A stretch of 64,000 bases of DNA from Acidobacteriota bacterium (GTDB lineage Bacteria; Acidobacteriota; Terriglobia; Bryobacterales; Bryobacteraceae), in contig JAPKZB010000087.1 in the NCBI GenBank assembly GCA_026393985.1, positions 18,556 through 82,555 on the forward strand, in the 5' to 3' direction. The position numbers and the translations under genes were made by a program. Below, one piece after another: positions 1 to 49,587 of the stretch. Within the stretch, counting starts at the first letter, position 1. Every line of letters begins with the position of its first letter. A model generated the notes under the pieces. That model had not been told where the DNA came from. It searched no databases and was given only the letters and a program-made list of their open reading frames with translations.

Positions 1-1
1 T

Positions 2-289
2 CTGGGGCAGTCGGCGATCTCGACCGGGGACAACTTTTTTGACCTGGGGGGGCACTCGCTGCTGGCGGTGCTGCTGGTGACGCGGGTGCAGGAGGAGTTT
101 GGCATGGAGCTGTCGATGGACGATGTCTACTCGGCCGATACCACGCTGGCCAAGTTGGCGATGATTGTCGAGACGCAGCAGTTGCGCACGTATGACCCGG
201 CGGAGGTAGCGGCGGTGATTCGCGAAATTGAGACGTTGTCGGAAGAAGAGGTCCGGTTGGAAATCTCCCGCCTATGCGCGTTCTTTTAA
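2..289 (+). CDS. 3' end of a nonribosomal peptide synthetase (peptidyl carrier protein domain), truncated by the window start
   Basis: Reading frame open from base 2: LGQSAISTGDNFFDLGGHSLLAVLLVTRVQEEFGMELSMDDVY..., with the canonical phosphopantetheine motif DxFFxLGGHSL. Confidence 0.9.
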   Translation: MGQSAISTGDNFFDLGGHSLLAVLLVTRVQEEFGMELSMDDVYSADTTLAKLAMIVETQQLRTYDPAEVAAVIREIETLSEEEVRLEISRLCAFF

Positions 290-3200
290 CTTCCAATGCT
301 TCGTACGAGCCGCCGCGGGGCGGTTCGACGCGGAGCAATCTGATTTGGCTTGAGGCGCTGGCGGCGGCGGGGCATGCGGTGCGGGTGGTGTGCCCGGCGC
401 ACGACGAGGCGGGCGAGACGACGCGGCGGGGGATTGCGATTTTGCGGGTGCCGGAGTTGACGCGGCACGTGGAGCGGTTGGCGGCGGAGATCGAGACGTG
501 GAAGCCGGACTGGGTGCTGGTTTCGAGCGAGGACCTGAGCCACGTGCTGCTGCGGGAGGCGTTTCGCGTGGCGCCTGGGCGGTTGATTTTCGTGGCCCAC
601 ACGCCGCAGTTTCTGCCGTTCGGGCCGGAGAGCTGGTACCCGGACGCGGCGGCGACGGTGCTGGTGCGGCAGGCGCGGGGCGTGGTGGTGATTGGCCATC
701 ACATGGCGGGTTACGTGCGGGAGCACCTGGGGGTGCGGCCGGTGGTGATCCATCCGCCGATCTACGGGACGGCGCCGTGGCGGAGGCTGGGGCGGTTCGC
801 GAACCGCTATGTGCTGATGGTGAACCCTTGCGTCGTGAAGGGCGTGACGGTGCTGGCGAGTCTGGCGCGGCGGATGCCGCAGCTTGAGTTTGCCGCGTTG
901 GCGGGATGGGGCACGACGGCGGCGGACCGGGCGCTGCTGCGCGATTTGCCGAACGTGACGCTGCTTGAGACGGTGCCGGATATTGAAGACGTGCTGGGGC
1001 AGGCGCGGCTGCTGCTGATGCCTTCGCTTTGGTACGAGGGCTTCGGGCTGATTGCGATGGAGGCGATGCTGCGGGGCTTACCCGTGGTGGCGTCGAATTC
1101 GGGAGGCCTGGCCGAGGCGAAGGCGGGGACGGGGTATGTGATCCCGGTGCAGCCGATTACGAACTACCGGGCGGAGTTCGACGACAACCACATGCCGCGG
1201 CCCGTGGACGTGGAGCAGGACCTGACGCTGTGGATGGCGGCGATTGCGGAGCTGACCACGAACGAGACGGCGTGGGAGGCCGAGGCGGCGCGGTCGCGGA
1301 CGGCGGCCGAGCGGTTTGTGGGGGCGCTCGATGCGCGGGATCTGGAGCGGTATTTGCAGTCGCGGCGGAAGCTGCGGGTGCTGTTGGCGCATAACTCGCT
1401 TTACTATCCGTCGGCGGGGGGCGGGGACAAGTCGAACCGGCTGCTGATGGAGGCGCTGGCGGCGCGGGGGCATCAGGTGCGGGTGGTGACGCGGGTGGAG
1501 TCGTTTGGCGAGGCGGACCACGCTGCGTATTTAGAGGCGCTGGCGTTGCGGGGGGTGAGCCCGGCGGTGGGGGAGAGTGAAGTTAGCTTTTCGCTGCGCG
1601 GCGTCGACGTACGGACGTTGACGCGGAGTCCGTTGTGGCGCCCTTACTTCCAACAGCAGATTGACGATCTTGATCCGGACGTGATTGTGACGTCGACGGA
1701 TGACCCGGCGCAGCTGTTGTTTGACCTGGCGGTGCGGACGCCGCGGGCGCGCGTGGTGTATCTAATCCGGGCGACGATTGCGGTGCCGTTTGGGCCGGAT
1801 AGCTCCGGGGTGAATGCGGAGCGGACGCAGTGGTTGGCGCAGGCGGACGGGGTGGTGGGGGTGTCGCACTACGTGGCGGGTTATGCGCGGGAGCATGGGG
1901 GATTGACGCAGGCGATTCACGTACCGATTTCGCTGCTCGAGCCGGGGCCGGCGCCGTTGTTGGGCCGGTTCGATAACCCGTATGTGCTGATGGTGAACCC
2001 GTGCGCGGTGAAGGGAATTGCGATTTTGCTGGGGCTGGCGGACGCGATGCCGGAGGTGACCTTCGGGGCGGTGGCTTCGTGGGGCACGACGCAGGAGGAC
2101 CTGGCGGAGCTGGCCAAGCGGCCGAACATCCGGCTGCTGCCGCGGACCGACAACATTGACGAGCTGCTCGCGCAGGCGCGGGTGACGCTGGTGCCTTCGG
2201 TGTGGGCGGAGGCGCGGAGCCGGATGGTGCTCGAGAGCCTGTCGCGGGGCGTGCCGGTGTTGGGCGCCAACGTGGGCGGGCTGCACGAGGCGATGCTGGG
2301 CGTGCCGTATCTGCTGCCGGTGAACCCGGTGACGACGTACCGGGGTACGGTGGACGAGCACATGGTGCCGGTGGCGGAGGTGCCGCCGCAGAATCTGGAG
2401 CCTTGGATGGAGGCTCTGCGGCGGTTGACGACGGACCGGCGGCATTGGGAGAAGCTCTCGGCGTTGTCGCGCGAGAAGGCGCTCGCCTACATGGAGAACC
2501 TGACCGTGCTGCCGTTTGAGGCTTACTGCGAGAGTTTGCAGCATGTGGACAAGCGCGGGGTGGCGGCGCGGGGCCCGGAGGCGGGGCCGCTGGTGGGGCT
2601 GAGCCCGGATCGGCGGCGGCTGCTGGAGCTGCGGCTGCGGGAGCGGGCGGCGTGGATGCCGGTGGTGCCGGCGAGCGGGCGGCGGGTGTTTTGCTTTCCG
2701 TGGGCGGGGGCGGGGCCGCTGGCTTACCGCGGGTGGCAGGAGCGGCTGGGGGCGGAGTTCGCCGTGATCCCGATCCGGCTGCCGCAGCGGGAGTGGGCCG
2801 GGATTGATGAGTTAGTCGAGCAGTTGGCGCGGCAGGTGAAGCCGCTGCTGACGGCGGACGCGGTGTTTTTCGGGCATTCCATGGGGGCGGGGCTGGCGTT
2901 TGAAGTCGCGCGGCGGGTGGCGCCGGGGCGGCTGGTGGTTTCGGCGGCGCGGGCGCCGAAGTTTCGGATCGGCTACGTACCGCCGGCGGAGCCGAGCGAC
3001 GCCGAGTTGCTTGCGCAGTTGGAGCGGCTGGGGGGTGCGCCGAAGGAGCGGCTGGAGGCGCTGCTGCCGGCTTTCCGGCGGGATACGCGGCTGTTCCGGC
3101 GGTGGGTGTACGCGCCGGGCGAGCCGTTGGCGATGCCGGTGGTGGCGCTGGGCGGGGAGGAAGATCCGCAGGTGACGGCGGAGCATCTGGCGCCGTGGGC

Positions 3201-3309
3201 CGAGGTGACGACGGCGGCCTTTGCGCTGCGGACGTTCGCCGGGGGGCACTTTTACTTCCAGACCGGCAGCGCGTTTTTCGGCGAGCTGGCGGCGATGCTC
3301 CGCGACTAG
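274..3309 (+). CDS. Trifunctional fusion: two tandem GT4-like glycosyltransferase domains plus a C-terminal type II (GrsT-like) thioesterase
   Basis: Paralogous halves MRVLLTSNASYEPPRGGSTRSN... and LRVLLAHNSLYYPSAGGGDKSN..., each with YVLMVNPC.VKG and an EX7E motif (EGFGLIAME, EARSRMVLE). Then FCFPWAGAG...GHSMGA...GGEEDPQV...GGHFYF, a type II TE triad. Overlaps the NRPS end by 16 bp. Confidence 0.85.
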   Translation: MRVLLTSNASYEPPRGGSTRSNLIWLEALAAAGHAVRVVCPAHDEAGETTRRGIAILRVPELTRHVERLAAEIETWKPDWVLVSSEDLSHVLLREAFRVAPGRLIFVAHTPQFLPFGPESWYPDAAATVLVRQARGVVVIGHHMAGYVREHLGVRPVVIHPPIYGTAPWRRLGRFANRYVLMVNPCVVKGVTVLASLARRMPQLEFAALAGWGTTAADRALLRDLPNVTLLETVPDIEDVLGQARLLLMPSLWYEGFGLIAMEAMLRGLPVVASNSGGLAEAKAGTGYVIPVQPITNYRAEFDDNHMPRPVDVEQDLTLWMAAIAELTTNETAWEAEAARSRTAAERFVGALDARDLERYLQSRRKLRVLLAHNSLYYPSAGGGDKSNRLLMEALAARGHQVRVVTRVESFGEADHAAYLEALALRGVSPAVGESEVSFSLRGVDVRTLTRSPLWRPYFQQQIDDLDPDVIVTSTDDPAQLLFDLAVRTPRARVVYLIRATIAVPFGPDSSGVNAERTQWLAQADGVVGVSHYVAGYAREHGGLTQAIHVPISLLEPGPAPLLGRFDNPYVLMVNPCAVKGIAILLGLADAMPEVTFGAVASWGTTQEDLAELAKRPNIRLLPRTDNIDELLAQARVTLVPSVWAEARSRMVLESLSRGVPVLGANVGGLHEAMLGVPYLLPVNPVTTYRGTVDEHMVPVAEVPPQNLEPWMEALRRLTTDRRHWEKLSALSREKALAYMENLTVLPFEAYCESLQHVDKRGVAARGPEAGPLVGLSPDRRRLLELRLRERAAWMPVVPASGRRVFCFPWAGAGPLAYRGWQERLGAEFAVIPIRLPQREWAGIDELVEQLARQVKPLLTADAVFFGHSMGAGLAFEVARRVAPGRLVVSAARAPKFRIGYVPPAEPSDAELLAQLERLGGAPKERLEALLPAFRRDTRLFRRWVYAPGEPLAMPVVALGGEEDPQVTAEHLAPWAEVTTAAFALRTFAGGHFYFQTGSAFFGELAAMLRD

Positions 3310-49185: not shown

Positions 49186-49587
49186 AATAAGAGCGTGATT
49201 CTCTCTGTTGGTACCGACCTCGCCGAAGTTCCTCGCATTGCCCACGCCCACGACCGCTTCGGAGACCGCTTCCTCCACCGCGTCTTCACCCCCGGCGAGA
49301 TCGCCTACTCCCTCCGCAAAGCCAACAAACACGAACGCCTCGCCGCCCGCTTCGCCGCCAAAGAGGCCCTAATGAAGGCCATCGGCACCGGACTCACCCA
49401 CGGCGTCACCTGGCAGGACATCGAAATCGTTAATCTGCCCTCCGGCAAGCCCACCCTCCGCCTGACCGGCCAGGCCGCCCGCCACGCCGAACGCCTCGGC
49501 ACCCGCCAAATCCATCTCTCCCTCACCCACACGGCCGCCTACGCCATGGCCGTCGTCATTCTCGACGATCAGGCCCCGGCTATCTGA
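49177..49587 (+). CDS. acpS: Holo-[acyl-carrier-protein] synthase (start may be GTG at 49195)
   Basis: SVGTDLAEVPRIAHAHDRFGDRFLHRVFTPGEIAY; AARFAAKEALMKAIGTGL; LSLTHTAAYAMAVVI. Confidence 0.93.
   Translation: MRDNKSVILSVGTDLAEVPRIAHAHDRFGDRFLHRVFTPGEIAYSLRKANKHERLAARFAAKEALMKAIGTGLTHGVTWQDIEIVNLPSGKPTLRLTGQAARHAERLGTRQIHLSLTHTAAYAMAVVILDDQAPAI

Follow-up and report, generated by a model that had tools for sequence, protein, structure and literature searches.

Gene arrangement at the locus

The window analysed here is a stretch of 64,000 nucleotides (G000:C73:18556-82555) from the 98%-complete draft genome of a member of the Bryobacteraceae. At its beginning, the end of a carrier-protein gene overlaps an open reading frame with an ATG start (274-3309, + strand), which encodes a 1011-aa protein composed of two GT4-type glycosyltransferase halves (GT1 and GT2) and a thioesterase (TE). 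The features are the following:

1..289, + strand: 3' end of the FkbH-PCP gene, encoding the PP-binding carrier domain and a C-terminal docking-like tail
274..1365, + strand: GT1, GT4-type domain (residues 1-364), with EX7E glutamates E255/E263 (EGFGLIAME)
1366..2550, + strand: GT2, paralogous GT4-type domain (residues 365-759), with EX7E glutamates E646/E654 in EARSRMVLE
2599..2646, + strand: GT2-TE linker helix LSPDRRRLLELRLRER (residues 776-791), resembling linkers beside NRPS condensation domains
2671..3309, + strand: type II-like thioesterase domain (residues ~800-1011), with the triad S869/D964/H992

Domain limits in GT-GT-TE were set by Pfam, alignment and the AlphaFold model. The Pfam models PF13439 and PF13692, both of the GT4 type, matched two stretches of the protein each, and thioesterase PF00975 matched residues 804-997 with 104 bits (cut-off 26.4). 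In the AlphaFold model (mean pLDDT 88.5) three domains were folded, and residues 765-792 formed a weak linker of low model confidence with one helix. Both halves had the attributes of GT4 enzymes, namely matches to the GT4 models, a GT-B fold and the EX7E motif, and Foldseek matched them to MshA, BshA and PimA. The TE domain was matched to BorB, RedJ and RifR. Its sequence is that of a type II thioesterase, with PF00975 and an intact Ser/Asp/His triad; it is, however, not the discrete stand-alone protein typical of this class, since it was fused to GT2 in 20/20 genomes, a count that takes in one genome whose contig stops within the TE. The ratio dN/dS against four close orthologues was 0.06-0.20 in GT1, GT2 and TE alike. 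Purifying selection thus acts on all three domains.

The upstream gene (650 aa, L003:16892-18844) starts 1663 bp before the window and overlaps the GT-GT-TE frame by exactly 16 bp (274-289). An earlier note on this DNA had described this overlap correctly and had taken the upstream gene for an NRPS gene lacking a terminal TE. The latter assignment does not hold. In this protein, an FkbH HAD domain lies between an N-terminal domain and an NRPS-type PP-binding domain (PCP). The FkbH domain scored 229 bits with TIGR01686 (cut-off 146.65) and carried the DxDxT motif of the family; the carrier domain scored 55.9 bits with PF00550 and carried the GGHS phosphopantetheine site of a peptidyl carrier protein, its Ser574 being encoded at window positions 56-58. 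Both GGHS and the HAD motif DCDxTLWxG(V/I)CGEDGP were invariant among relatives. The nearest solved structures were 3slr, a protein with a HAD-IIIC phosphatase domain, and NRPS carrier proteins, among them the PaxA T1-docking-domain complex. A domain search of the 650 residues returned no adenylation or condensation domain, and none of the latter was found in the whole 98%-complete host genome. An upstream NRPS was ruled out on these grounds, and from its domains the gene is assigned as encoding an FkbH-PCP loading protein.

The host genome contains two phosphopantetheinyl transferases (PPTases). Its best PPTase match lies inside the window (49204-49551) and is AcpS-type, in a 151-aa frame. 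The one type I PKS of the genome, which includes a TE of its own, is a single-module highly reducing enzyme of 2440 aa (KS-AT-DH-ER-KR-ACP-TE; L077:7510-14832, G000:C16), followed by an adjoining phosphopantetheinyl transferase. TE-bearing frames of ~2450 aa resembling it occur in three further genomes (G001, G016 and G017). A second, distant FkbH homologue (39%; G000:C10:39297-40382) is common to several members of the genus.

Distribution among relatives

We surveyed 61 genomes of relatives. The GT-GT-TE set was present in 10/19 genomes of the genus and in 10/18 of other genera of the family, and in 0/24 outside the family. It was fused over its full length in 12 genomes and encoded by two adjacent genes, GT1 and GT2-TE, in 8 of the same family. 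These fused and split orthologues ruled out an assembly artefact, and together with the Pfam matches and the AlphaFold model they establish the single reading frame as real. Only partial homologues were found in the 396 genomes sampled across the phylum. The architecture is rare and, over the 61 relatives and 396 phylum genomes, confined to one bacterial family; it is not a common, annotated one, which the earlier note had named as an outcome that would speak against its reading.

The gene order FkbH-PCP, GT1, GT2-TE was kept in 19/20 carrier genomes, the exception (G031) having FkbH-PCP on a separate contig with no GT nearby. Full-length FkbH-PCP was present in 20/20 genomes with the GTs versus 1/41 without them (Fisher p ~3e-15, uncorrected for shared descent within one family). 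No further gene was conserved beside the cassette across genera, and no polysaccharide, flippase or lipid gene was conserved next to it. Since FkbH-PCP and the GTs co-occur and have no other conserved neighbour across genera, the cassette is a self-contained accessory unit of two genes, or three in sister genera. Conserved tailoring genes were considered and rejected: none is family-wide, and the DUF1684, SMP-30 and NUDIX genes upstream are found only in close relatives.

An FkbM methyltransferase adjoins FkbH-PCP in G003 only (L061:12049-12951) and an orphan GT2 in G020 only; in the latter genome, a GT2 copy without TE is followed by the methyltransferase gene (L063:4121-6254). Judging from these neighbours, the product may be O-methylated in some species.

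No close GT homologue was found in 298 Actinomycetota (E<=1e-40) or 349 Pseudomonadota genomes (E<=1e-30). As these sets include no positive control and weaker homologues occur on plasmids, this suggests rarity only. A 3035 bp contig of a Phycisphaerales MAG (L044, JALOQT010000348.1) was ~88% identical to the cassette; mis-binning of a Bryobacteraceae contig is the probable explanation, rather than horizontal transfer.

The two glycosyltransferase halves

GT1 and GT2 are paralogues, as previously proposed, with ~38% identity. In the 13 genomes compared, EGFG...E was present in 13/13 GT1 halves and EARSR...E in 13/13 GT2 halves. The NPCxxKG lysine and both EX7E glutamates were retained in GT1 and in GT2, and HTPQF in GT1 corresponded to RATIAVPFG in GT2. 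The observation that GT2 has EARS in place of EGFG with EX7E kept was correct as a description, but not as a loss: such constancy marks EARSR as an invariant signature of the GT2 clade. Decay of GT2 was ruled out by this conservation and the low dN/dS. In the tree the GT2 clade had a support of 100/100 and the GT1 clade a weaker one of 61/88, which places the duplication before the radiation of the family. The consistent differences between the halves fit two distinct transfers.

Related glycosyltransferases in other assembly lines

Five Chloroflexota genomes (L101-L105) encode a homologous GT with 31-34% identity, whose gene directly follows one with a carrier protein at its end and precedes one with the next carrier and a TE. 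The one such locus annotated with Pfam reads A-PCP, GT, C-A-PCP-TE-MFS, phosphopantetheinyl transferase. In this conserved cluster, for example at L102:3918-13450, the GT comes after the loading module and ahead of the first condensation domain, and the predicted product is a glycosylated dipeptide. In G111, an Acidobacteriota genome, a C-A-PCP-C-A-PCP-TE protein has at its N-terminus a GT domain ~40% identical to GT2.

These proteins resembled the cassette in their helices when compared by eye. The tail of the cassette PCP, LSDEEVRALLAEE, resembled Chloroflexota LSDEEIQALLADE. The cassette GT1 tail LSPEKRALLLERLRKR and the GT2-TE linker listed above were like the Chloroflexota GT tail LPAEQRALLAQRLKQR, and also like LSPERRALLAQRLRQR, found ahead of the Chloroflexota C domain, and LTPEQRALLLQRLRKK of G111. 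Each of the seven split genomes that were read had some form of the GT1 tail, which was missing where GT1 and GT2 are fused. NRPS-like linker helices thus appear to be common to the cassette, the Chloroflexota lines and G111.

On a Streptomyces plasmid, genes for an ACP, a TE, an FkbH (44%), sugar-nucleotide enzymes and two GTs lie side by side; one of these GTs is a GT4 (37%), the other belongs to a different family. The locus (Streptomyces sp. NBC_00441, L086:18560-28000) is near gamma-butyrolactone regulator genes and is likely a secondary-metabolite cluster with related chemistry. For GT2 relatives from three lineages (L087, L090 and L099), no carrier or FkbH was detected in the neighbourhood, which weakens the inferred link to a carrier without removing it. 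At L087:14214-21152, on an alphaproteobacterial plasmid, and at L090:8857-16284, in an Acidobacteriota genome, a GT4 closely related to GT2 is grouped with a WD40 protein, a protein resembling sulfotransferases and a member of a fourth family, a common small cluster judged by eye from translations.

Proposed mechanism and alternatives

FkbH enzymes load glyceryl from phosphoglycerate onto a carrier in known pathways (PMC7489565, PMC8949500, PMC10099666). Given FkbH loading followed by two GTs and a terminal TE, the simplest route would run from glyceryl-S-PCP over GT1 and GT2 to hydrolysis. We propose a stand-alone carrier line yielding a glycosylated, probably diglycosylated, glycerate, and regard the chances of this reading as evenly balanced. 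The PCP would be activated beforehand by a phosphopantetheinyl transferase encoded elsewhere in the genome, and FkbH, going by its family, would charge the PCP at its own C-terminus with the acyl group of a phosphoglycerate, giving a glyceryl thioester. GT1 would then glycosylate a hydroxyl of the bound glyceryl with a sugar nucleotide as donor, GT2 would attach a second sugar, either on the first one or on the other hydroxyl, and the fused TE would hydrolyze the thioester to release the free (di)glycosylglycerate. The glyceryl substrate is deduced from FkbH homology and glycosylation in the carrier-bound state from the architecture; the two sugars and the hydrolytic release are likewise presumed. 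BshA glycosylates malate, a small hydroxy acid, and being among the nearest GT folds it provides a precedent for an acceptor of this kind.

In favor of the carrier line we counted the FkbH and PP-binding domains, the gene order and co-occurrence, the linker helices, the purifying selection, the lack of a condensation domain, the two PPTases and the presence of the same GT type between NRPS proteins in Chloroflexota and at the N-terminus of one in G111. The three GT2 relatives without carrier, the similarity of the TE to type II (editing) enzymes and the unlinked FkbH-PCP of G031 were counted against it. The earlier note had suggested that release is coupled to the (di)glycosylation of a product bound to a carrier. 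This emerged with comparative support as the best-supported mechanism, its NRPS premise having fallen away. Going one step further, with confidence a little short of even, we consider a self-contained, carrier-templated glyco-assembly line whose elongation units are GTs in place of condensation or ketosynthase domains, with NRPS-type docking helices, in an NRPS-free organism.

The main rival reading has the GTs building a sugar chain on a glycan or lipid, onto which the TE, acting as an acyltransferase, would move glyceryl from the PCP. An Aquisphaera plasmid indeed encodes an FkbH-PCP-TE protein next to a glycosyltransferase in an exopolysaccharide-type/exosortase neighbourhood (L088:14950-17961), and G057, another class member of the Acidobacteriota, encodes an FkbH-PCP fusion of similar length (977 aa) that carries one more domain at its C-terminus (L109:7055-9988). 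Throughout the family studied here, however, the TE is joined to GT2, the cassette keeps no polysaccharide, flippase or lipid gene beside it, and the nearest sequences and folds of the TE are hydrolytic type II thioesterases. We hold such decoration by glycerate to be unlikely.

The unusual EARSR context in GT2 and the type II sequence of the TE would suit a different division of labor, in which only one GT acts on glyceryl-PCP, the second has a structural role, and the task of the TE is the editing of mis-primed PCP instead of product release. Retention of the EX7E glutamates and the NPCxxKG lysine in both GTs, the low dN/dS in each and the lack of any other release domain in the cassette speak against this, and it seems to us improbable. 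Least probable is the supply of a glycosylated glyceryl starter to some larger assembly line whose genes lie outside the cassette. Several NRPS products begin with FkbH-loaded glycerate (PMC8949500, PMC8609519), and the host does have the TE-bearing type I PKS with its adjoining PPTase; however, the 98%-complete genome is without a condensation domain, the cassette already includes a TE, and an assembly-line gene is never a conserved neighbour.

Comparison with known systems

The separate parts, i.e. FkbH/PCP loading, GT4 domains and a type II-like TE, are known. For the combination of an FkbH, two GTs and a TE, no description was found in the open-access literature searched. The FkbH/carrier glycerate loaders of tetronate and methoxymalonyl-ACP pathways (PMC7489565) and vioprolide-type NRPS loading modules (PMC8949500, PMC10099666) pair an FkbH-type HAD with a carrier as the cassette does, and a glyceryl thioester is expected. 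In known FkbH systems, however, glyceryl goes into a polyketide or peptide, whereas the sole partners in the cassette are two GTs and a TE. The NRPS-associated GT4s of Chloroflexota and G111 share with the cassette the GT type and the linker or tail helices by carriers, but there a single GT is combined with amino-acid-type loading and true condensation domains downstream.

RedJ, BorB and RifR, which provide the nearest TE sequences and folds and in which the triad is conserved, are discrete proteins, in contrast to the cassette TE, fused to a GT in every relative. The S869/D964/H992 triad of the latter, noted earlier as apparently intact, was indeed conserved. BshA, MshA and PimA have the fold and EX7E in common with the cassette GTs, and the BshA acceptor is also a small hydroxy acid, but identities are ~15-20% and those systems use no carrier protein. 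GpgS, GpgP and DggS, for glucosylglycerate and diglucosylglycerate (PMC4555173), belong to the same product class as predicted for the cassette. The GpgS route glycosylates free 3-phosphoglycerate without carrier or TE, whereas the cassette has GT4 domains, a carrier and a TE.

Conclusions

The cassette uses assembly-line parts without the peptide-building modules that these parts usually serve. If the proposal is true, the logic of carrier-based assembly lines, which covers amide, ester and carbon-carbon bonds, would take in glycosidic bonds as well. With two proteins the system is minimal and would be easy to reconstitute. Glycosylglycerates are known as compatible solutes and as polysaccharide primers, and the cassette would constitute a carrier-bound path to this class. 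Where the same GT type occurs within the NRPSs of other phyla, glycosylated starter units are predicted, which genome mining may miss.
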